From Halovenus rubra (lineage in GTDB: Archaea; Halobacteriota; Halobacteria; Halobacteriales; Haloarculaceae), in the NCBI RefSeq assembly GCF_026586665.1, contig NZ_JAODIY010000001.1, forward strand, positions 1 through 64,000: 64,000 nt of DNA, read 5' to 3'. The position numbers and the translations under genes were made by a program. Positions 2,489-64,000 of the stretch are shown here, piece after piece; positions within the stretch are counted from its first letter, which is position 1; each line of letters begins with the position of its first letter. The notes beneath the pieces were generated by a model. It saw nothing but the letters and a program-made list of their open reading frames with translations, made no database searches and was not told the DNA's origin.

Positions 2489-4024
2489 ATGAGTGGACGC
2501 GACGAGGAAGCAGTGACAGGTGATGAGCGTGACGCGCTCCTCACAATCGCGCGTGGTGCCGCTGTGACAGCAGGTGGTGTATCTGGCCAACGCATACTGA
2601 TTACCGCTGCTGAGTACGTTCTGGCGCGGGGACTCGGGCCGATGGCGTATGGGGTATACGCTCTCACGTGGCGAATCGCACAGGTGTTGGTTCGACTCGT
2701 TACCTTCGGGAGTGTCCCAGCCCTCCAGCGATATCTGCCAGCGTATGAGTCTGAACCCAAACGCCAATCCCGGGTTGTCGGACTAGCCTATGCAACCACC
2801 GTCGGGTTCGGGCTGCTGATGGGAGTCGGGTTGCTGGTGCTCGCACCATGGATAAACGAGCACACCGTCGACGACGCTGCGTTTCCACCAGCAATGCGGT
2901 TGTTCGGTGGTCTCATCTTGCTCATTGGTTTCGTGATGATTTACGCCGGGACCTTTCGTGCAGTCGGATCAGCACGGGGAGAAGTGTTGTTTAACAAGCT
3001 ACTCCGTCCCGCGATGCGCCTGCTGGGTGCCGTCGTGGCACTCACAGTTGGTTACTCGGTTGTCGGCGTCGCCGGAACAATCGTCGTCTGTATGGCACTG
3101 CTCGTTATCGTAGGCTACCCAATAACAGAACGGCTAACAGGGATTCGGCCGTCTCTGCGTGTCAGCCGGCATGCGGTCAGCCAGTTCTACAATCACGCGG
3201 CACCGGTGGCAATGAGCAGTCTCGGTAAGATATTCCAGAATCGAGTCGACGTATTACTGGTTGCGGCGCTGCTGACGACTGTTGCAACTGGCATCTACAA
3301 TGTTATTCTGGTTCTTGTGGCGATTGCGTGGATTCCACTCCTTTCGTTTAACCAATTGCTTCCCCCCGTTGCCTCCGATCTCCACGCAAGCAACCAGATA
3401 GAGACACTCAATGCGGTTTATGCCTCTGTGACCCGCTTGATTGTGACGACGGTCATCCCAATTCTTGCTGTCCAATTTGTGTTTGGACGGGAGTTACTGG
3501 CGCTTTTCGGGCCGACCTACACTGAGGGATACCTAGCGCTTGTCGTTTATCTCGGCGGCGTCTTCGTCGGAAGCGCAGTCGGGGCGACCGGCTGGCTACT
3601 TATGATGACAGACCATCAGTACGCACGGATGGGCCTTGACTGGCTGCTGGCCGTCTCGAATGTCATCTTGACGTATATCTTCATCCAGACGTTCGGTCTA
3701 GTTGGGGCGGCCCTCGGAACTGCACTGGCCACCAGTGTTCAGAACGGATTACAGGTGCTATTGCTCAGGCGTTTTGAGGGACTATGGCCGTTCGATCGGA
3801 CGTTTCTGACACCGCTGGCTGCGGGTGTTGTGATGGTGATTGCCATGTCTGGGATACGTTCTGTGGCCGGGGGCCTGCTATCGCTCGGTCTTGGAATAGC
3901 CGTTGGCCTCCCTCTTTACATTGCCTCCCTGAAGTTCATCGGTGTTGCACCCAGTGACCGGTTTGTTGCCCAAGAACTCAGTACAACAGTTCGTTCCCGT
4001 TTTGCCACTCGGTGGCCGTTCTAA
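2489..4024 (+). CDS. polysaccharide/lipid-linked oligosaccharide flippase (Wzx/MATE-like)
   Basis: About 511 residues with some 12-14 predicted membrane helices and the N-terminal GARGLGPxxYGVYAL-like stretch (here ARGLGPMAYGVYAL) typical of RfbX/Wzx exporters. Members flip lipid-linked sugars across the membrane for surface polysaccharide or protein glycosylation. I chose the ATG at 2489 over the adjacent TTG at 2486. It stands alone, divergent from the phosphoesterase, with no glycosyltransferase nearby. The exact substrate cannot be deduced. Confidence 0.85.
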   Translation: MSGRDEEAVTGDERDALLTIARGAAVTAGGVSGQRILITAAEYVLARGLGPMAYGVYALTWRIAQVLVRLVTFGSVPALQRYLPAYESEPKRQSRVVGLAYATTVGFGLLMGVGLLVLAPWINEHTVDDAAFPPAMRLFGGLILLIGFVMIYAGTFRAVGSARGEVLFNKLLRPAMRLLGAVVALTVGYSVVGVAGTIVVCMALLVIVGYPITERLTGIRPSLRVSRHAVSQFYNHAAPVAMSSLGKIFQNRVDVLLVAALLTTVATGIYNVILVLVAIAWIPLLSFNQLLPPVASDLHASNQIETLNAVYASVTRLIVTTVIPILAVQFVFGRELLALFGPTYTEGYLALVVYLGGVFVGSAVGATGWLLMMTDHQYARMGLDWLLAVSNVILTYIFIQTFGLVGAALGTALATSVQNGLQVLLLRRFEGLWPFDRTFLTPLAAGVVMVIAMSGIRSVAGGLLSLGLGIAVGLPLYIASLKFIGVAPSDRFVAQELSTTVRSRFATRWPF

Positions 4025-4092
4025 TCAGAGAAATGTACGTCCCCCACTTATGATTGTCTGCACCGGCACCAAACACCCACGGCTACCGTGTT

Positions 4093-4464
4093 TTACTCTG
4101 TTGCCCAAGAGACAGCCACATCAACGCTGTCGAATGCTTCGACGTCTACACCGACGGTTCCGTCAATCTTCGACTTGAGAGCAAGTCCCTGAATACCATC
4201 GGACACCCATCCAACTTTCTCAAGACCAAGCTTAGCATATAGTAGATTGTTCTGTTTAATATAGGAAAGCGTCTTCTTGTCCAGTGTAACGTTTGCCTCA
4301 AGTTCTGTCACTGAAGCTGTGATCTCATCTCGATTGGCCACAGATTTGAGTTCTTTTGTGACTTGGTCCAGCTCGTCTTCGTTCGGATCAACCCAGTCCG
4401 TAACGTCCCAGATGACGACGTTATCCGTAATCTTGTACGACCACGGTTTCTCTGAATGGGGCAT
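4093..4464 (-). CDS. hypothetical protein, possible STAS/SpoIIAA-like fold
   Basis: A 123-residue protein with no signal peptide or membrane helix. Its pattern (WDVTDWVDPNEDELDQV near the N-terminus, alternating strand/helix, and FDSVDVAVSWA near the C-terminus) resembles the SpoIIAA-like STAS fold, in which the last helix contains F-x-x-x-D-x-A-x-x-W. That is a weak fold-level guess. The gene is more AT-rich than its neighbours and its upstream region (4465-4560) is strongly AT-rich. It is convergent with the flippase. Confidence 0.6.
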   Translation of the reverse strand: MPHSEKPWSYKITDNVVIWDVTDWVDPNEDELDQVTKELKSVANRDEITASVTELEANVTLDKKTLSYIKQNNLLYAKLGLEKVGWVSDGIQGLALKSKIDGTVGVDVEAFDSVDVAVSWATE

Positions 4465-4619
4465 ACTTTTCTATTATATTCTAACAATGATAAATGGTAT
4501 CATTAAACAAGCAGTAGTAGCAAATAGATGGCGAGCCGAAAAATAATGTCACATGTTTACATAAGTCACAAAGAGGTTGGGTAGAAACCCGTTTAGGCTA
4601 CCAGCGGCTCACCCCGATA

Positions 4620-31820: not shown

Positions 31821-33404
31821 TTAGTTATCAAACCGCGCCTGAACGAATGGTTGTGCATCCTCAATGTCACCCAATCGAGAATCTGAGACAAGAACACTCT
31901 CCGTTTCTTCGACTGGAACTGAGACACTGATTTCTTTTGTCCGACCATAGCGGCCCTTTGAGACGACGACTGCGTTGACGATGCCTAACATATCGAGTTC
32001 ACTTATCAAGTCTGTTACACGGCGTTGTGTCAGCACGTCGGCGTCAATCTCCTTACAGAGACGTTTGTAGATGTTGTACACTTCGCCGGTGTTGATATTG
32101 TGAACCCCTTGTTTTTCGAGTAAGATGATAGCAAAGAGGACGAGTTTGGACTGTTGGGGAAGCGTTCGGACGACTTCGATAACTCGGTCGAGTTCGATTT
32201 TCTCCTGGGCCTGCCTGACGTGGTCTTCTTGGACATCGTCAGTTTGGTCTCGTTCGGCGAGTTCGCCGGCTGTTCGGAGCAGGTCAAGCGCCCGACGAGC
32301 GTCACCGTGTTCCTGTGCGGCAAACGCCGAACAAAGCGGGATAACGTCCTCGGTTAGTGCACCCTGTTTGAACGCAACCTCAGCTCGGTGCTGGAGGATG
32401 TCTCGGAGCTGATTGGCGTCGTAGGGTGGGAAGACGATTTCCTCCTCACCGAGGCTCGATTTGACGCGCGGGTCGAGAAAGTCAGTGAACTTCAGGTCAT
32501 TCGAGATACCCATGATAGAGACCCGGGAGCGTTCGAGTTCAGAGTTCATCCGTGAGAGGTTATAGAGGGTGTCGTCACCCGACTTCTCGACGAGCTTGTC
32601 GATTTCGTCGAGCATGATGACAACCACACGCTCGCGGAAATCAACCGCTTCGAAAAAGGAGTTATACACCCGGTCGGTGGGCCAGCCGGTCATCGGTACC
32701 TCCTCGAAAGAGTCTCGTTTCGACTCAAGTTGATCGATATACTCTTCAACAGCTGTTACGGAGGAAAACTGCGTCTCAGCGAGTGTATCAGCGTCGTCTT
32801 GAGCGCGCTCAAGCAGCGATTTGAGGTCGTCAAGTTCGTCCTCGATAACCGATTTGTTTTGCTCAATAAATGTGTTGGCGAGTTGAGCAAGCACGCGATA
32901 CTGCGTGTCAGTTACTTCGCAGTTGATGTACTGAACCTCACAGGGAACCTCATACTTCTGGGATGTTGACTCGAGTTCCTCGCTGACGAACTTCGCACTC
33001 GCGGTTTTTCCGGTCCCAGTCTTCCCATAAATGAGTATATTCGAGGGAGTATCGCCACGGAGCGCCGAGACGAGGATGGTTGCGATGTTGTTAATTTGTT
33101 CTTCGCGGTGTGGGAGTTTCCGAGGCGTGTAAGAGGGCCGAAGCACTTCCTTATTCTCGAAAATCGGCTCGCCACTGAGGAGGTCATCGAACAAGCCGGC
33201 AGAAGACTCTTCAGTATCATCTTCCAGAAGGTCATCAAGCGAAGATGTCCGGTCCTCAGTGCGTGGGGCAAAACTCTCGCTATCATCCTGTGCCGGCTGC
33301 TCGACGTCTGAGATACCGTCTTCGCGGTTGGTACTGTCAGTCACGATATCCTCAGTGCTAGACCCTTGCTTGTCGTCCTCAGTCGATTCATTCTGATCAG
33401 CCAT
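31821..33404 (-). CDS. orc1: origin recognition/initiator protein Orc1/Cdc6
   Basis: 527 residues. An acidic disordered N-terminus (~1-80) is followed by PRKLPHREEQI, Walker A IYGKTGTGKTASA (~124-136), Walker B VVIMLDEIDKLVE (~259), sensor 1 GISNDLKF, sensor 2 GDARRALDLLR (~372), and a C-terminal winged helix (QQSKLVLFAIILLEK...). A ~90-residue helical insert after Walker A (DDLKSLLERAQDDADTLAE...) is typical of haloarchaeal origin-linked Orc1. It is transcribed away from the adjacent origin and should bind the ORB elements listed. Confidence 0.96.
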   Translation of the reverse strand: MADQNESTEDDKQGSSTEDIVTDSTNREDGISDVEQPAQDDSESFAPRTEDRTSSLDDLLEDDTEESSAGLFDDLLSGEPIFENKEVLRPSYTPRKLPHREEQINNIATILVSALRGDTPSNILIYGKTGTGKTASAKFVSEELESTSQKYEVPCEVQYINCEVTDTQYRVLAQLANTFIEQNKSVIEDELDDLKSLLERAQDDADTLAETQFSSVTAVEEYIDQLESKRDSFEEVPMTGWPTDRVYNSFFEAVDFRERVVVIMLDEIDKLVEKSGDDTLYNLSRMNSELERSRVSIMGISNDLKFTDFLDPRVKSSLGEEEIVFPPYDANQLRDILQHRAEVAFKQGALTEDVIPLCSAFAAQEHGDARRALDLLRTAGELAERDQTDDVQEDHVRQAQEKIELDRVIEVVRTLPQQSKLVLFAIILLEKQGVHNINTGEVYNIYKRLCKEIDADVLTQRRVTDLISELDMLGIVNAVVVSKGRYGRTKEISVSVPVEETESVLVSDSRLGDIEDAQPFVQARFDN

Positions 33405-33961: not shown

Positions 33962-33990
33962 CCCCCCCACCCCTTTGTTTCAGGTGGAAC
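33962..33990 (-). repeat. ORB element with long G string
   Basis: On the minus strand GTTCCACCTGAAACAAAGGG is followed by GTGGGGGGG: a full-length haloarchaeal ORB with both the dyad core and the G string. It borders the AT-rich unwinding region on its left side. Confidence 0.9.
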
Positions 33991-34257: not shown

Positions 34258-34286
34258 GTTCCAGTTGAAACGAAGGGGTGGGGGGT
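34258..34286 (+). repeat. ORB element with long G string
   Basis: On the plus strand GTTCCAGTTGAAACGAAGGG is followed by GTGGGGGGT. It is the mirror partner of the 33962-33990 box across the AT-rich region, giving the inverted ORB pair typical of archaeal origins. Confidence 0.9.
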
Positions 34287-43670: not shown

Positions 43671-46199
43671 TCACTCCCCAGTGTAGGAACTCGTCACGAC
43701 TTCACGAATCCGCTCGGCAGTCACTTTTCCGACGCCTTCGGCGTCCATCAGGTCCTCAGTTTCTGCGGTCATCACGTCCTCGACACTGCCAAACGCTTCG
43801 AGGAGCGACCGCGCCGTGACGGGACCGACCTCGGCGATGGAGGCAACGACGTACTCCTGTTGTTCGGCCAGTGTCTTTGATTGTTTCTCGCCGTGGACGC
43901 TGACCTCCCGCTTGCCCTCTTCCTGTTCGCGGGTCGCAATTACCTCCAGCAGGTCGGCGGTCTCTTCTTCGCCTGCAGTTTGCATCACGCTGACGCCGAA
44001 ATCAACCGCGAGCGAGGCGAGCGCACCGCCGATAGCCTTCGGGTGGACGTTCCGGCGGCCATAGAGGTTCTCGCCCTCGATGATAACGACGGGACGGCCG
44101 TAGTGTCGGCTGGCATCGCCGACCTGCTCGAACATCGAGCGGTCGCCGCCGACGAGCGTCTCCAGAAAGTCCTCGACTTCCTTGCGCTCGACGGCGACGC
44201 GGTCCGAGAGCACGTAGTCGCCGACTTCCAGTGTCTCCAGTCGGGTTTCGATTCCCTCCCGCGTCGAGAGGTCTCGTGCAATTGTCGAGTCGAGTTCCCG
44301 CTGGTCGACGACGACTTCGGTCAGTCCGGTCTCCTCGTCGCTGTCTCCGTCGACGCCAGCCTCTGCGACGACGGTTTCTTCATCAGTTGTCTCGCTCGCA
44401 TCGCTTGAGGCGTTACTGCCGTCAGTTTCGACAGCCTCAGTTTCACTTGCATCCCCGGAGAAAGCTTCGAGACCTGCCTGCCCGTTTTCAGTGTCTTCGT
44501 CACTGTTTGTCTCTGCCGTTTGCTCGTTGGCGTCGCCGGTACCGGAATCGCTGTCTGACCCGCCGTTTTCCTCTACTTTTTCGGTCTGCCCGCCGCCTGA
44601 CCCCTCCGTTTCGTCTGGAACTTCATCTAGCCCCATCTGTCTCCGGAGGCGTGATTCGATGTCGCCGGCAGCGTTTTTCAGCAGGCGGAGTTCGTCTTCC
44701 ATCTTCTTTTCGTCCTGTCTGGCCTTCCAGAAGTACGCCTCGTCGCGGGTGTCTTCGGCAAGGAGGACGGTCACGCGACCCTCTGTCTGGCGGCCGGTCC
44801 GGCCCTTGCGCTGGATGGAGCGAATTGCCGTTGGCACTGGCTCATAAAAGAGCACGAGGTCGACCTCAGGTACATCCAGTCCCTCCTCGGCGACGGACGT
44901 GGAGACGAGTACCTCAAACTCGCCGGCGCGGAACCGTTCGAGAGTGTCCTGTTGTTGGGTCTGGGTCATCCCGTCGCTGCCCTCGGTATCGCTCTGTCCG
45001 ACGAAGCGCTTGACAGAGAAATGCTCGCCGAGGAAGTCGGTCAATGTCTCGGCAGTATCCCGTGATTCAGTGAAGACGATGACGCGCTCACCGTCGTTGA
45101 TGCCGAGTGTCTCGGCGATGAGCATCCGCGAACGTCTGAATTTCGGGTGGAGGTCGGTGTACTCCTCAGCGACTCGGACGGCCTTTTTGACATTCGGGTC
45201 AGAAACCATCCGCTGGTCGGCCTTAGAGGCCCCCGAGGAGCGGGCGGCCTCACGTTGGCGGTCCATGTACCGCCGAAAGGATTCGACACTCTGGGTCTCC
45301 ACGTAGGTCAGGGCGGTCCGAAGTTTGCGTACCTCGGCGAGAACGCTCATCCCCTTGTAGCCAGCGGAGTCGTCGCTGTTCATCAACTCCTGGACTTTCC
45401 CCTGTATCTTCTGTATCTCGCGCTCGGAGACGCTGGGGTCGGTCGACCGCGTCACGCCCAACTCTTTGAGCTTCGTCATCCGGTCCTTGATGACCTCCTC
45501 GATGGCGTCACGAATCTCTTCGACAGTGTCTGGCAGTTCGATGCGCTTCCACTCGACGCTCGTGTCGTGGGTGTACGCCTCGACGTCGGCATCATCTTCG
45601 GTCATCACGTCGACGTTTTCGATACCGAGGTTGGCACACACCTGTAGGATTGCCTCTTCGTCGTCACCGGGTGAGGCGCTCATCCCTGTCGCGAGCGGGG
45701 TATCGGCGTCTTCGTGGTAGCGTTTCGCGATGTAGTTGTAGGCGTAGTTACCGGTCGCACGGTGACACTCATCGAACGTGCAGTGGGCCACGTCGGCGAG
45801 CGAGACTCGGTTGCCAACGAGGTCGTTTTCGACGACCTGTGGCGTGGCGATGACGATCTGTGAATCCTCCCAGAGAGCGGCCCGGTCGTCGGGGCGAACT
45901 TCGCCCGTGAAGACGACGATTTCGTCATCCGGAATTTCCAGGGCCTCGCGGTAGAACTCGGCGTGCTGGGTGACCAGCGGTTTGGTGGGCGCGAGCAGGA
46001 GGGATTTCCCGCCGACCTCGTGGAGTCGGTGTGCGGTTACGAGTAGTGAGACGGTCGTTTTCCCTAGACCGGTGGGGAGACAGACCAGCGTATGTTCCCC
46101 GAGCGCTCGTTCGGCCAGAGTCGTCTGGTACTCGCGGCGCTCCAGCACCCCCGATGTGATAAGCGGGCGGTCGATAGCGTCGGCGTCCGTCGCTGCCAT
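43671..46199 (-). CDS. hef: Hef helicase/nuclease (XPF/FANCM family)
   Basis: 842 residues from ATG 46199 (MAATDADAIDRPLI). Helicase half: LPTGLGKTT (Walker A, ~41-49), FDECHRATGNYAY (DECH box, ~140), FTESRDTAETL, and VQRKGRTGR-type motif VI (IRSIQRKGRTGRQ, ~460). A ~120-residue acidic linker joins the ERCC4 nuclease (GDYVLSDRVAVERKEVEDF; ERK-xxx-D active site, ~660-678) and a C-terminal helix-hairpin-helix pair (AEVGPVTARSLLEAFGS, DAEGVGKVTAERI). It processes stalled forks and branched DNA. Confidence 0.96.
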   Translation of the reverse strand: MAATDADAIDRPLITSGVLERREYQTTLAERALGEHTLVCLPTGLGKTTVSLLVTAHRLHEVGGKSLLLAPTKPLVTQHAEFYREALEIPDDEIVVFTGEVRPDDRAALWEDSQIVIATPQVVENDLVGNRVSLADVAHCTFDECHRATGNYAYNYIAKRYHEDADTPLATGMSASPGDDEEAILQVCANLGIENVDVMTEDDADVEAYTHDTSVEWKRIELPDTVEEIRDAIEEVIKDRMTKLKELGVTRSTDPSVSEREIQKIQGKVQELMNSDDSAGYKGMSVLAEVRKLRTALTYVETQSVESFRRYMDRQREAARSSGASKADQRMVSDPNVKKAVRVAEEYTDLHPKFRRSRMLIAETLGINDGERVIVFTESRDTAETLTDFLGEHFSVKRFVGQSDTEGSDGMTQTQQQDTLERFRAGEFEVLVSTSVAEEGLDVPEVDLVLFYEPVPTAIRSIQRKGRTGRQTEGRVTVLLAEDTRDEAYFWKARQDEKKMEDELRLLKNAAGDIESRLRRQMGLDEVPDETEGSGGGQTEKVEENGGSDSDSGTGDANEQTAETNSDEDTENGQAGLEAFSGDASETEAVETDGSNASSDASETTDEETVVAEAGVDGDSDEETGLTEVVVDQRELDSTIARDLSTREGIETRLETLEVGDYVLSDRVAVERKEVEDFLETLVGGDRSMFEQVGDASRHYGRPVVIIEGENLYGRRNVHPKAIGGALASLAVDFGVSVMQTAGEEETADLLEVIATREQEEGKREVSVHGEKQSKTLAEQQEYVVASIAEVGPVTARSLLEAFGSVEDVMTAETEDLMDAEGVGKVTAERIREVVTSSYTGE

Positions 46200-58524: not shown

Positions 58525-58622
58525 ACTGTTTGCTCACACCGTTATCTCGGCTGTAATATAACGGTAAAACAACTGTTTGAGCCTTGGTTTCGGTTATATG
58601 TCTTTCTCGCGTCGTATCGAGC

Positions 58623-60608
58623 ATGGTAACTAAACCGAACGCAGCGGTAATGGGGGTAATCGTGACGGCGCTTCTCGGCGTGGCACTGCTTGGGGGCGTT
58701 GTCGGACTGCTTGACGCCCCAGAAACGACCGACGATAGCAACGACCAGTTGGCTCCCCGAGGACCAACCGGACCTTCGTCAGCTCTGGCAGGCGCTGACG
58801 ATGAGCCAGTCGTTGAAACGTTCGAATCAGCCGATGAGTTTGAGACGTATTTCGATGCAGCACAAAAGCCTGGCTGGTTGGGTTGGACGTCTTTCGTAAC
58901 GGGGCAACCTACGATCGAGATAGAAGAAACGACGACAACGGCCGATAGCGCCGGCGACACTGACGGTGGTGATGGCCTTGACGCTGCAAGTGGCAGTAAG
59001 ACTGAGACCAGCCGACACTCCGAAACCAACGTTCAAGAGGCCGCGCTTGATGAACCCGCCATGTTGAAGACCGACGGTGATTCGGTCTACTATGGCGGCC
59101 ACCGCTTCCAGCGGACAGCCTACGAAACGACTGTCCTCGACATTGACGACCCGGCCAAACCAGAACTCGCCGCGACTATCCCGGCAGCCGGTGAAATGTT
59201 ACTTATCGAAGAGACTGACACGCTTGTCATCTTCGAGGACGATCGTCTCTGGGGGTACGATGTGACCGACCCCACTGAACCCGAACAGCGCTGGACCGAG
59301 CGCATGGGGGCAGACCTCCAGACGGCACGCCTTTACAACGGCTCGCTCTATCTGGTCCTCGTCGACAGGCCAGACGATGAGAACCCCTGTCCCATTGAAC
59401 CGTACGGTGACTCTTCGGTCGAATGCACAGATATCTACAGACCCGACTCACAGGCCGACGCGGACGCCGTTTACACGGCTGCCCGTGTTGACCCTGCAAC
59501 GGGGATAATCGAAAATGAAACCAGCGTGGTCGGCTCCGCTCGTGACTCGGCGACTTACGTTTCCGAGAACGCGCTCTATCTCAGCTACACCCGCTCAACC
59601 AGCCGGTTCGACGTGATGACGAATTACCTTACTGGCCCTGGGAGCGAGAAAGTAGATGACAGCGTTGTCGAAGAGATTGAACGCCTCCAGTCGCTGAATA
59701 TTTCCAAGCGCGCAAAACAGACTGAACTAAACGTCATTCTTGACGAGTGGAAAGATTCCCTCGAAGGTGACGAACATATGTCGGCCGAAGAGGTGCTCAC
59801 CGAAGGATTACGTGAATACGCTGAAACGAGAAAGCGCAACTTGACGACAACCGGTATCGTCAGTATCGGTCTCGACAATCTTACTGTGACCGCGACCGGT
59901 GAGGTGCCGGGCTTTCCGCTAAACCAGTGGTCGATGGACGAACACGAAAACCACCTCCGGATTGCGACAACAATTCCCAGTGACTACGGGGCCGAATCCG
60001 AGAACGATGTCTACGTCCTCGACTCGGAGTTGTCGACAACCGGCTCTGTTCAGGGACTCGGAGACACTGAGCGTATTTACTCCGTCCGCTTCGAAGGTGA
60101 CGAGGGGTACGTTGTCACCTTCCGCCAGATTGATCCCTTCTATACGCTTGACCTCTCGGACCCCAGTGACCCGATTATGGAAGGGAAACTGAAGATACCC
60201 GGCGTCTCCCATTACCTCCATCCCCTCGAAGACGAGGGCGACCTCGTTCTCGGCGTGGGCGAAGAAGACGGGTCAGTGAAGCTCTCGACGTTCGACGTGA
60301 GCGACCGGAGTGACCCGGTTGAGAAAGACGTGCGCATTCTCGACAACGAACGGTTTTCGGAAGCCAACCAAAACCACCGGGCGTTCCTGCAAGACGAGCG
60401 CCACGGTGTGTTCTTCCTCCCTGCGAGTGAGCACAGCTACGTCTTCTCCTACGAGAACGGAACTCTCGAAGAGAAAGCCCGCGTCAATATCGGTCCCGGT
60501 GCCCGAGCGATGTACGTCGACGACTATCTCTACGTCTTTGGCTCGGACAGCGTTGTGGTTCTCGATGAGACGACTTGGGAGGTCCATACCCGTCTGGACT
60601 TGGAGTGA
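58623..60608 (+). CDS. secreted or membrane-anchored beta-propeller domain protein
   Basis: 661 residues from ATG 58623 (MVTKPNAAVMGVIVTALLGV), with an N-terminal hydrophobic anchor (~9-30). A linker of acidic and Thr/Asp-rich sequence leads to a large domain with repeated short strands (LVIFEDDRLWGYDVTDPTEP, LYLVLVDRPDD...), matching the C-terminal Beta_propel family in archaea. Probably surface-exposed with a binding role. It follows the aminotransferase by 98 nt. Confidence 0.8.
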   Translation: MVTKPNAAVMGVIVTALLGVALLGGVVGLLDAPETTDDSNDQLAPRGPTGPSSALAGADDEPVVETFESADEFETYFDAAQKPGWLGWTSFVTGQPTIEIEETTTTADSAGDTDGGDGLDAASGSKTETSRHSETNVQEAALDEPAMLKTDGDSVYYGGHRFQRTAYETTVLDIDDPAKPELAATIPAAGEMLLIEETDTLVIFEDDRLWGYDVTDPTEPEQRWTERMGADLQTARLYNGSLYLVLVDRPDDENPCPIEPYGDSSVECTDIYRPDSQADADAVYTAARVDPATGIIENETSVVGSARDSATYVSENALYLSYTRSTSRFDVMTNYLTGPGSEKVDDSVVEEIERLQSLNISKRAKQTELNVILDEWKDSLEGDEHMSAEEVLTEGLREYAETRKRNLTTTGIVSIGLDNLTVTATGEVPGFPLNQWSMDEHENHLRIATTIPSDYGAESENDVYVLDSELSTTGSVQGLGDTERIYSVRFEGDEGYVVTFRQIDPFYTLDLSDPSDPIMEGKLKIPGVSHYLHPLEDEGDLVLGVGEEDGSVKLSTFDVSDRSDPVEKDVRILDNERFSEANQNHRAFLQDERHGVFFLPASEHSYVFSYENGTLEEKARVNIGPGARAMYVDDYLYVFGSDSVVVLDETTWEVHTRLDLE

Positions 60609-60670
60609 CACCACTGACGACTAATGCCGAACACATAGAGTGACTGTACAGACCGACAGTCACAGTGTTT

Positions 60671-60692
60671 GTCCAGTTGAAATGAAGGGGTG
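60671..60692 (+). repeat. isolated ORB-like element
   Basis: The plus strand reads GTCCAGTTGAAATGAAGGGG then TG. Over the 21 positions from TCCAG to GGGGTG it differs from the origin ORB at 34258-34286 in one base only. It lacks the long G string of the origin copies. It sits between the beta-propeller gene and the truncated Old Yellow Enzyme gene, 26 kb from the origin, with no initiator gene nearby. Confidence 0.7.
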
Positions 60693-60879
60693 CAACAAAC
60701 GAGATGCCCGTCACAATGAAAAAATCATCCGTACCACTCGACAGACTGTGGTAGGGTAGCTGTCTGAATCCAGTTCGATATTGAGAACAGTGTTTCTTGT
60801 TTTTCGAGGAGAGTGTCTTTCTAGGACTCTCTCAATTGCGGTACAAAAACAGCGGCTGTGAAGTGAGCTGTTACAGGTG

Positions 60880-61908
60880 TTACTGCTGGAACAGCCCGCG
60901 ATACTGCGGCGGACCAGTGGCTGTCTCCTCGTCGAGTGTCGCAGCTGCTCGCAGACCAAAATATGGATCTCGAAGATGTTCACGACCCACGATAACGAGG
61001 TCGGCTCGGTCATTTGCGACGATTGCCTCGGCCTGTTCCGGTGTCGTGATGTTGCCGACCGTTCCGACCGAAATGTCGGCCTCGGTTTCTTCTTTGATTC
61101 GCTCGGCAAGTGGGAGCTGATAGTTTGGTCCCTGGTTTTCCGGAGACGAATTCGGGCTGATGCCGCCGCTGCTTACATCCACGAGGTCTGCGCCCAGCGC
61201 GGCCAACTGGTCGGTCAATCGCACAGACGCTTCGACAGTCCAAGACGGTTCGGAGAGCCAGTCAGTCGCAGAGATGCGGACGAACACTGGTATATCATCG
61301 GGGACGCGTTCACACACCGCTGCGGTCACGTCGCGGGTAAGCCGGGTTCGTCCTTCGAAACCGCCGCCATAGTCGTCTTCGCGGGTGTTTGTTACCGGCG
61401 AAAGAAATTCGTGGAGTAGGTAGCCATGGGCAGCATGCACTTCGACGATACGGAAGCCAGCTTCAACTGCTCGCTTGGCGGCCTGACCAAACGCCTCGAT
61501 TATCTCGTCAATACCCTCGCTGTCAAGCCGTTCGATATCCGGCTTCGGTCGGTCGTACGGAAACGAGTCGCGTGTCGGTCCGACGACTGTCCAGCCATCA
61601 TCTTCCTCAGCCGGGATGGTTGCGTGGCCGTCACGAGGACGGACCGTCGAACCCTTCCAGCCGGCATGGGCCAACTGGATTGCTGGGACTGACCCCTGTG
61701 ACTCGATGAACTGTGTGACCTGCTTGAGCGAAGCAATATGTTCGTCGTCCCAGATACCCAAGTCTTCCGGGGAGATACGGCCCCGCTCCTCTACAGCGGT
61801 AGCTTCAGCCATGACGATACCTGCACCACCGACTGCCCGCGAGCCGAGATGGACCTGATGCCAGTCAGTTGCGTGACCATCCTGTTTGTCACAGGAGTAC
61901 TGACACAA
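60880..61908 (-). pseudogene. Old Yellow Enzyme-family NADH:flavin oxidoreductase, 5' truncated
   Basis: The frame encodes ~342 residues of a YqjM-like OYE: the first recognisable residues are CQYSCDKQDG, which in intact homologues follow a conserved ...PNRIxVSPM. Later motifs (AIQLAHAGWKGS, HAAHGYLLHEFLSPVTNTR, DLVDVSSGGISP, and VIVGREHLRDPYF) are complete through the stop. The first ~22-25 residues, which form barrel strand 1 and contact FMN, are absent; sequence upstream (TIAEL...) is unrelated. The gene is cut at the end of the neighbouring integrated element. Confidence 0.8.
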
Positions 61909-61920
61909 CTCGGCTATTGT
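61905..61920. other. probable integration junction
   Basis: Reading the OYE gene on the minus strand, homology stops at about 61905, at the codons for CQYSC, and the sequence beyond (61909-61969) is unrelated and AT-richer. The RHH and integrase genes begin at 61970. The junction therefore lies within a few bases of 61905. The att core should overlap the CQYSC codons; the other copy lies outside the window. Confidence 0.55.
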
Positions 61921-61969
61921 GTATAAACAGCGTAAACACTAAGGGGCCACCGTGAGACGTTTCGGGTAG

Positions 61970-62494
61970 ATGGCAGAGAAAACCACCGTCGCCTTTCGGA
62001 TTGATGAATCGGTCAAAGAGGAATGGGAAGACGCCGCCGAAGGCCCGGAGTATGACAGTCTTAGCCACTTGATACGGCTTTCTGTCCAACGGGAGATAAC
62101 AGACACAGGGACGGCCCCACGCACCGCAAAGGCCGACACAGGAACAGTAGAAGATAGTGAGGTACTGGATTCTCTCACTCGACTGGAAAGGACAGTCGAA
62201 GACATACAGGACGAAATGAAGGCCGTCAGTCGAGAAAGTCGTTCTGAGGAATTATACAATCTTGAACAGGTACTTCTTGAAGTTCTCCCATCCCACAAAA
62301 CTAATCTGGAAGATTTGGAAAATCCGATTGGTTCTGACATTGAAAGTGCTACTCCAGAAGAAATAGCGGCACGAATTGACGCCAATGAACAGGACGTTTC
62401 AGATGCGCTCAATCGCCTTTCAGATAACACGGCACAGGTAAAGGAATTAGGCACGGCGTTTGATGACCAAAACAGCTACTATAGGGCAGAATAG
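61970..62494 (+). CDS. ribbon-helix-helix-like protein upstream of the integrase
   Basis: 174 residues. The N-terminal ~55 residues (MAEKTTVAFRIDESVKEEWE then DAAEGPEYDSLSHLIRLSV) fit a CopG-like RHH DNA-binding fold. A Glu-rich coiled-coil follows (~70-105), then a winged-helix-like C-terminal segment (SATPEEIAARIDANEQDVSDALNRL). The stop shares 1 nt with the integrase start. Likely a regulator or recombination accessory factor; inference only. Confidence 0.7.
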   Translation: MAEKTTVAFRIDESVKEEWEDAAEGPEYDSLSHLIRLSVQREITDTGTAPRTAKADTGTVEDSEVLDSLTRLERTVEDIQDEMKAVSRESRSEELYNLEQVLLEVLPSHKTNLEDLENPIGSDIESATPEEIAARIDANEQDVSDALNRLSDNTAQVKELGTAFDDQNSYYRAE

Positions 62495-63507
62495 TGGACA
62501 GTAAGACAGTAATCACAGAGTTTCATAACCGACAGACAACAAAAAAAGCGGAGGGAACCGCCAACAGGTACACTCAGGACGTAAGAGACTGGACAGAGTG
62601 GTTAGAGAATCCCGGAGCTAAAGATTACGACCCTAACAGCCGTGACAGGGACGCTAAGACACTTTGGGACGCTACTACCCACGACGTTAGAACGTACCTC
62701 CGACAAATGCTAAACAACGGGGGATATGCTGGCGGAACAGTCTCGATGCGAGAATCTTCTATATCAATGTTCTATCAGGAAGCCTCTCGTATGGCTGAAG
62801 ACCCTTCTATGAGTATCCCTGAAACAGAGAACCCCGCAAAGGAGCTTGACCTTTCAGGATGGACGGCACTAAAGAACGGAACTAAGAAAGAACAAAATCT
62901 GAAAGAGGGTGTTCAATACCTTGAACCGGACGAAATAGACAGTTTAGCCGAAAACGTACCAAACCCCCGGCTACGTAATGAGCTAATTGTCCGGCTACTC
63001 TACCATACGGGATTACGCCGCACAGAACTAACAGAAACTCGCTTAGAAGACATTGACACAGACGAACGGGCAATCAAAGTCCGGGCAAACAAAACCCACC
63101 AGAACCGTACTGTCTACTACCAGTCCGAACTTGACACTCTCCTGAATCGGTGGCTCAATGTCAACCGTAAATCTCTGGCGACAGCTGGAAGCGATTACCT
63201 CTTTCCGACAACTCATTCAGAACAGATTGACCCTAACCGTATCACCCGACTCGTCAAAGAAGCCGCAGAACAGGCAGGATTACAGTCTACTGTTCACACA
63301 GACGCCGCAGGTAATGTCCGGGGAAAAGTGACGGCACACGTACTAAGGCACAGTTTCGCCGTCCAAAGTATCAAAAATGGAATGGATACCCGCCGATTAC
63401 AGAAACTAATGGGTCACTCGAAGATTGAAACCACAGAACGGTATCTTCAATTCGCCAATAATGACCTTCGGGAAGCCGCCCGGAGATACGGCCCCGGTTC
63501 AGAGTAG
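62494..63507 (+). CDS. tyrosine recombinase/integrase
   Basis: 337 residues from GTG 62494. N-terminal SAM-like core-binding domain (~8-120), then the catalytic domain with YHTGLRRTELTE (Arg I), VRANKTHQNR (Lys), AHVLRHSFAVQ (His-x-x-Arg), MGHSKIETTERYLQF (His/Gly and nucleophile Tyr). Complete and apparently functional. The overlap with the RHH gene implies coupled expression. It would catalyse insertion and excision of the surrounding element. Confidence 0.93.
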   Translation: MDSKTVITEFHNRQTTKKAEGTANRYTQDVRDWTEWLENPGAKDYDPNSRDRDAKTLWDATTHDVRTYLRQMLNNGGYAGGTVSMRESSISMFYQEASRMAEDPSMSIPETENPAKELDLSGWTALKNGTKKEQNLKEGVQYLEPDEIDSLAENVPNPRLRNELIVRLLYHTGLRRTELTETRLEDIDTDERAIKVRANKTHQNRTVYYQSELDTLLNRWLNVNRKSLATAGSDYLFPTTHSEQIDPNRITRLVKEAAEQAGLQSTVHTDAAGNVRGKVTAHVLRHSFAVQSIKNGMDTRRLQKLMGHSKIETTERYLQFANNDLREAARRYGPGSE

Positions 63508-63661
63508 TTCCCTTCCCTCACTCCGGGGGTAAACACCACGAGATACCCCTTCCACGTACTTCTTGGGAGAGGCGGCATTACGCACCGCAAGTGCCGCCAA
63601 AGAATTAATGTCGGTACTTTAAGACCTTAGAACTAAGTAGAAGTCCGCTAAATGATTCTCT

Positions 63662-63931
63662 GTGTCTGAAAGCACAATCGGAATCCCCGACACCGTCGCC
63701 ACAGAATCACTCTCCTACGCAGGAACTGATATGACCCTTCGAGAGATAGCCACCGACCTACAGGAAGCGCACAGGGAACTTGACGAATATCATAGCGGTT
63801 CGTTGGTCTTAGCACAGAACCTGAAGGAACTACGGATGAAAGCCGAACGGGACGGAAACCTACAACTCGCTAATACCACCAAAGAATTAGAAGAATCAGC
63901 TATGGCCGTGGTAGAACGTAGCAGAGAATAG
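63662..63931 (+). CDS. small hypothetical protein of the element
   Basis: 89 residues from GTG 63662, mostly helical and charged (LREIATDLQEAHRELDEYHS, LKELRMKAERDGNLQLANTT), with no membrane segment. Unrecognised. It lies 154 nt after the integrase; the gap contains only an AT-rich, stop-laden stretch with TTAAGACC-type promoter-like sequence near 63619. Confidence 0.55.
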   Translation: MSESTIGIPDTVATESLSYAGTDMTLREIATDLQEAHRELDEYHSGSLVLAQNLKELRMKAERDGNLQLANTTKELEESAMAVVERSRE

Positions 63932-64000
63932 CAACCGTCTCAGAATTTCCACAGACGCCACTCAGTAGCCCCTCATGACATTCTTTTTCGAGAGGATGGT

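Follow-up and report, generated by a model that had tools for sequence, protein, structure and literature searches.

In Escherichia coli, the initiator DnaA is titrated by datA, a locus that has a fixed position away from the origin and carries initiator boxes. How re-firing of origins is prevented in archaea is, to our knowledge, largely open. The closest archaeal counterpart comes from Haloarcula hispanica: according to the accessible text of the report (PMC3936714), which also names datA, an ORB-rich region downstream of cdc6E (oriC2D) represses oriC2, likely by titration of Cdc6E. As to how an origin recognition box (ORB) is used, the accessible text of another paper states that Orc1 reads it via a winged-helix domain, whereas the AAA+ domain takes the G-string after strand opening (PMC7776575).

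The ORBs described below resemble oriC2D in being non-origin boxes that could hold an initiator. However, oriC2D comprises 11 ORBs in 722 bp by a cdc6 gene (PMC3936714, accessible text), whereas here we deal with a lone ORB that lies 26 kb away from the origin, or with a spaced pair of ORBs inside the gene for the small subunit of DNA polymerase D (DP1).

A Solitary ORB Core Far from oriC

The window analyzed here is the first 64 kb (64,000 nucleotides) of a 461-kb contig of Halovenus rubra. The features relevant to replication initiation are as follows.

31821–33404, minus strand: orc1/cdc6 gene adjoining the origin
33968–33988, minus strand: oriC partner ORB, inverted
34260–34280, plus strand: oriC ORB that serves as reference, with a G-string after it
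60672–60692, plus strand: stand-alone ORB core without G-string, TCCAGTTGAAATGAAGGGGTG

In agreement with the first-pass annotation of this DNA, TCCAGTTGAAATGAAGGGGTG at 60672–60692 equals the oriC ORB at 34260–34280 in 20 of 21 bases, the single mismatch aside. The likeness ends at the core boundaries: the bases that come next are GGGGTGCAACA at 60672 vs GGGGTGGGGGG at 34260, so the G-string is missing from the solitary copy, as had also been reported.

Such a match is hard to obtain by chance. Dinucleotide shuffles of the window (n = 100) gave an expectation of 0, and a search of all 48 contigs of the genome (3.57 Mb) gave just six sites within two mismatches of TCCANTNGAAANGAAGGGGT, compared to none for the reversed pattern. 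The six are the two oriC ORBs, the 60672 site, one site in hef (44600) and two on contig C39, in the DP1 gene and before ftsZ. We also scored sites with a matrix derived from the oriC ORBs of relatives, the ORBs of Halovenus rubra itself being excluded. The 60672 site scored 29.5, the oriC ORBs 34.9 and 35.2, and the hef site 22.4; in 80 Mb of simulated order-3 Markov DNA the top score was 25.3, and no site reached 29. The motif is rare in this genome. The ftsZ candidate (C39:33184–33203, L052:19185), flanked by ftsZ and a small gene, was set aside: it has two mismatches, is unscored and could be due to chance.

An ORB match alone does not mark an origin. No second ORB (up to four mismatches) was found near 60672, and there was no skew inflection near 60.7 kb. 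An AT-rich unwinding element is missing as well, the best 60-bp AT content being 63% near the site vs 75% at oriC. No orc gene lies beside the site, the sole one in the window being that at oriC (31.8–33.4 kb). By the features tested, therefore, 60672 is no origin: while sharing the core with the ORB of its own oriC, it lacks the G-string, the inverted partner, the AT-rich element and the adjacent orc1/cdc6, which upholds the earlier statement that it is not a full origin element. As for orc1 detection, profile NF001625 at E 1e-170 found orc1 in only 2 of 155 cases, and its match is split in the Halovenus rubra genome; the low yield is probably due to an insertion in haloarchaeal Orc1 that splits the match.

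Genomic Setting of the Site

Two genes converge on the solitary ORB, which their 3′ ends flank in the following arrangement.

58584–60608, plus strand: left neighbor, beta-propeller protein (PF09826), ending before the ORB
60609–60879, no strand: spacer between the convergent genes, containing the ORB (271 bp, 54% AT), not kept in relatives
60640–60663, no strand: terminator-like hairpin (stem of 8 bp) that precedes the ORB by 8 bp (consensus scan only)
60880–61908, minus strand: right neighbor, C-terminal part of a split OYE/NADH:flavin oxidoreductase gene (PF00724)

Folding the spacer as RNA revealed nothing unusual (z −0.64), and short repeats around the ORB were judged to be due to chance.

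The site had been described as lying 190 bp from the boundary gene of an integrated element. A gene does lie there, namely the OYE gene, whose stop is at 60880, but it belongs to the host rather than to the element. The C-terminal part of this gene extends to 61908, whereas the N-terminus was found at contig position 64864–64941, meaning that it is a host gene split by the insertion; the element starts about 1.2 kb from the ORB. This integrase-bearing element of about 3 kb (window 61909–64000 on to L125:864–941) interrupts the OYE gene near its start, in the first ~25 codons.

The predicted site is lineage-specific and not conserved. When the spacer was used as a DNA query against the 18 genomes of the genus, it retrieved only itself and the ORB core elsewhere, the other matches being short (E >0.02), and none of the 17 relatives has a homologous spacer. 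In H. aranensis the beta-propeller and OYE genes abut, with ~16 bp between them, and in H. salina a kinase-like gene fills the ~1.8 kb between them; in neither species did a scan up to four mismatches reveal an ORB between the two genes. At other beta-propeller loci there was no ORB within two mismatches.

Other ORBs outside Origins

The exact ORB pattern matched in 55 of 57 genomes of the family, and the reversed control in none. We examined 40 contexts (covering a part of the matches; one of them is an adjacent stretch devoid of an ORB) and found that 18 had no orc1, DP1 or hef within ~2.5 kb. Solitary exact ORBs away from the origin, DP1 and hef occur in at least 16 of the 57 genomes, Halovenus rubra included. 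Seven of the 18 adjoin a methyltransferase/DUF2391 block, three a UPF0029 gene that we take to be of the YigZ type, two another shared neighbor, and six stand alone.

The ORBs at the methyltransferase/DUF2391 block come from seven genomes of two genera (L212–L215, L218, L221, L238). In three of these (L218, L221, L238) the block is adjoined by a PRTase-domain gene, presumably pyrE. Among eleven further stretches, five from Halovenus (two mismatches) also adjoin the YigZ-type gene, which hence stands beside the ORB at 8 of 8 loci in three genera (L282, L283, L284, L290, L291, L216, L219, L227), with identical ORB orientation in all eight. At seven of them the ORB is followed by a convergent upp (uracil phosphoribosyltransferase, PF14681), which in H. 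salina lies ~1.1 kb off. The anatomy is the same as at 60672, with the ORB in a spacer between convergent genes. Overall, predicted ORBs that lack a G-string and lie outside origins recur in the family above chance, some at homologous places, and the 60672 site likely belongs to this dispersed class.

An ORB Pair within the DP1 Gene

The most striking stray ORBs form a precisely spaced pair within a DNA polymerase subunit gene of the relatives. When we scanned the 18 Halovenus genomes for compact ORB pairs, an outward-facing pair, 58 bp from start to start, emerged as the second one besides oriC. It was present in 16 of the 18 genomes (with a spacing of 57 bp in one); G014 retains one half of it, while G015, although counted among the 18, contributed no DP1 locus to the comparison. 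Among the matches listed, the pair falls within one conserved reading frame, identified as the PolD small subunit DP1 (NF003116, 899 bits vs a cutoff of 425). The Halovenus rubra copy is the following.

C39:21251–21328 (locus L052:7252–7329), within coding sequence: DP1 ORB pair, outward-facing, 58 bp

Of 392 genomes in the order, 109 contain a match to an exact pair pattern, as opposed to none for the reversed control and none when the spacer was set to 53 instead of 52; all 30 pair loci examined, out of the matches listed, lie in DP1. Outside the order, but within the phylum, the exact pattern was absent from all 116 genomes searched. In a set of 139 genomes overall it occurred in four, all from Halobacteriales, with the reversed control matching in two.

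To sample DP1 independently of these matches, we took 80 genes, at least one per listed genus, chosen without regard to ORBs. In 66 of them the summed score of an outward pair exceeded 20, at a spacing of 58 bp (57 genes), 55 bp (8 genes) or 70 bp (1 gene), whereas controls passed this score in 1/80 (inward), 8/80 (tandem) and 0/80 (reversed sequence). Among the 14 genes below 20, several have one good ORB (L143, L154, L203) and two have nearly nothing (L144, L186).

When codons were permuted synonymously within each of the 80 genes (200 permutations, best pair anywhere in the gene), the observed pair was never reached in 73, and in the other seven it was reached by 1 to 147 permutations. The failure of synonymous permutation to reproduce the pair in 73/80 genes indicates that the DNA itself is selected. 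At the pair, the 66 high-scoring genes have fixed rare codons, namely Val GTT (48/48, vs 10% gene-wide), Thr ACT (46/46, 9%), Pro CCA (54/54, 12%) and Gly GGG (63/64, 23%), although, the DP1 genes being related, neither these counts nor those from the permutations are independent events.

The pair has no G-string: on either side, just 2 of 66 genes have GGGG among the 10 bases that follow, and the stretch between the ORBs has a mean AT content of 39%, so the DP1 pair is no origin either. In Haloferax volcanii, polD1 (2942–4540) lies near orc1 and oriC1, according to the accessible text of two papers (PMC2841640, PMC7776575). In H. aranensis and H. salina, DP1 is 78 and 96 kb from oriC, and the pair is still present. 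Among the predicted G-string-less ORBs, this pair is the most conserved member. We found no description of ORBs inside DP1 in the accessible text of a literature library of limited extent. The main survey of haloarchaeal origins, as far as its accessible text goes, covered only intergenic regions next to orc/cdc6 genes and so could not have seen the pair (PMC3528665).

Possible Roles of the Non-Origin ORBs

Our best explanation of 60672–60692, tentative and somewhat short of an even bet, is a genuine oriC1-type ORB core that acts as a docking (parking or titration) site for the chromosomal Orc1 outside the origin, as one of the dispersed class. The site offers the sequence presumably recognized by the winged-helix domain of Orc1, while the G-string, the inverted partner and the AT-rich element that DNA opening would need are missing, so that Orc1 might be held there without firing and the amount of free initiator lowered. 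Binding of Orc1, titration and any action of this copy we infer from the sequence. Against docking stands the fact that none of the 17 genus relatives conserves the site; being lineage-specific, its function is uncertain. The modest spread of solitary exact ORBs away from the origin, DP1 and hef, seen in only 16 of the 57 family genomes, also counts against it. Moreover, no oriC2D-type cluster is present at 60672, and a single ORB would probably be weak as a titrator, if one judges from the 11 boxes of the titrator that was tested (PMC3936714, accessible text).

The lack of conservation, together with a spacer that measures 271 bp here, ~16 bp in H. aranensis and ~1.8 kb with its kinase-like gene in H. 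salina, would suit a neutral leftover or fortuitous match in a recently rearranged spacer, which Orc1 may bind without anything depending on it. We regard this as a serious but lesser possibility, because no equal score arose in the 80 Mb of simulated DNA and because a likeness that stops at the core is more readily explained by selection or independent gain than by the copying of a fragment. The first-pass annotation had suggested an Orc1 parking or regulatory site, which fits the recurrent, above-chance ORBs outside origins. A promoter role is unlikely, since both flanking genes run toward the site and have their 3′ ends there. Initiators do act on transcription in other systems. Control by Orc1 of transcription or termination of the two neighbors could also draw on the hairpin 8 bp upstream and on the role of this kind proposed for Cdc6A (PMC3936714, accessible text). 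Still, the distance from any promoter, and the fact that in H. aranensis these two genes adjoin each other with no ORB between them, make such control improbable.

Much less credible is a relic or dormant origin, another suggestion of the first-pass annotation. It could appeal to a high-scoring ORB on the contig of oriC itself and to the dormant origins known in Haloferax mediterranei, but these, in the accessible text of PMC4595724, retain inverted ORBs beside a cdc6 gene, unlike 60672. The lack of a second ORB, an AT-rich element, a skew inflection and a nearby orc gene speaks against this idea, and so does the spacer, which the two closest named relatives either lack or have replaced by other sequence; its poor conservation argues against a relic origin and makes a promoter site hardly tenable. 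Least probable of all is that the ORB arrived with, and belongs to, the integrated element: this is close by and carries an integrase, but it is bounded by the OYE halves (61908 and 64864), so the ORB lies outside it and that reading is largely refuted.

Extending the docking explanation to haloarchaea at large, we consider it plausible, if slightly more doubtful than docking at 60672 itself, that a dispersed, selected network of G-string-less ORBs holds or senses Orc1, with the order-wide DP1 pair (58/55 bp) as its core and 60672 as a recent lineage-specific addition. The fixed spacing of the pair suggests that two Orc1 molecules may act jointly. The network might be a counterpart of datA, the initiator being titrated or inactivated soon after the origin-proximal locus is copied; initiator and boxes differ from those of datA, and an inactivating role of ORBs is here hypothetical. 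Alternatively, expression of the polymerase subunit may be coupled to free initiator. Between titration, inactivation and such coupling of DP1 expression, sequence cannot discriminate. A defined set of initiator boxes outside origins can be altered while the origin itself stays intact, and synonymous substitutions suffice to remove the DP1 pair, which makes its role accessible to experiment with the protein unchanged.

ORB-like Sequences in and near hef

A weaker site is found within the coding sequence of hef in the window.

44600–44619, minus strand: weaker ORB-like site in the hef (helicase-nuclease) coding sequence, score 22.4, ~0.2 expected per genome by chance

Its codons read P-x-E-T-E-G, a reading shared with the right ORB of the DP1 pair. 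Of 29 family genomes, four have an ORB with a score of at least 15 on the sense strand of hef, in a comparable position within the gene (L252, L258, L262 and G115, whose hef is split over L279 and L281), a recurrence that is suggestive only. On the gene-sense strand, ORB-like sequences inside hef map to L262:3348, L258:3241 and L279:3237. In three genomes, ORBs scoring 29–31 occur shortly downstream of hef (L261:4234, L265:4194 and L266:4169, hef-sense strand).
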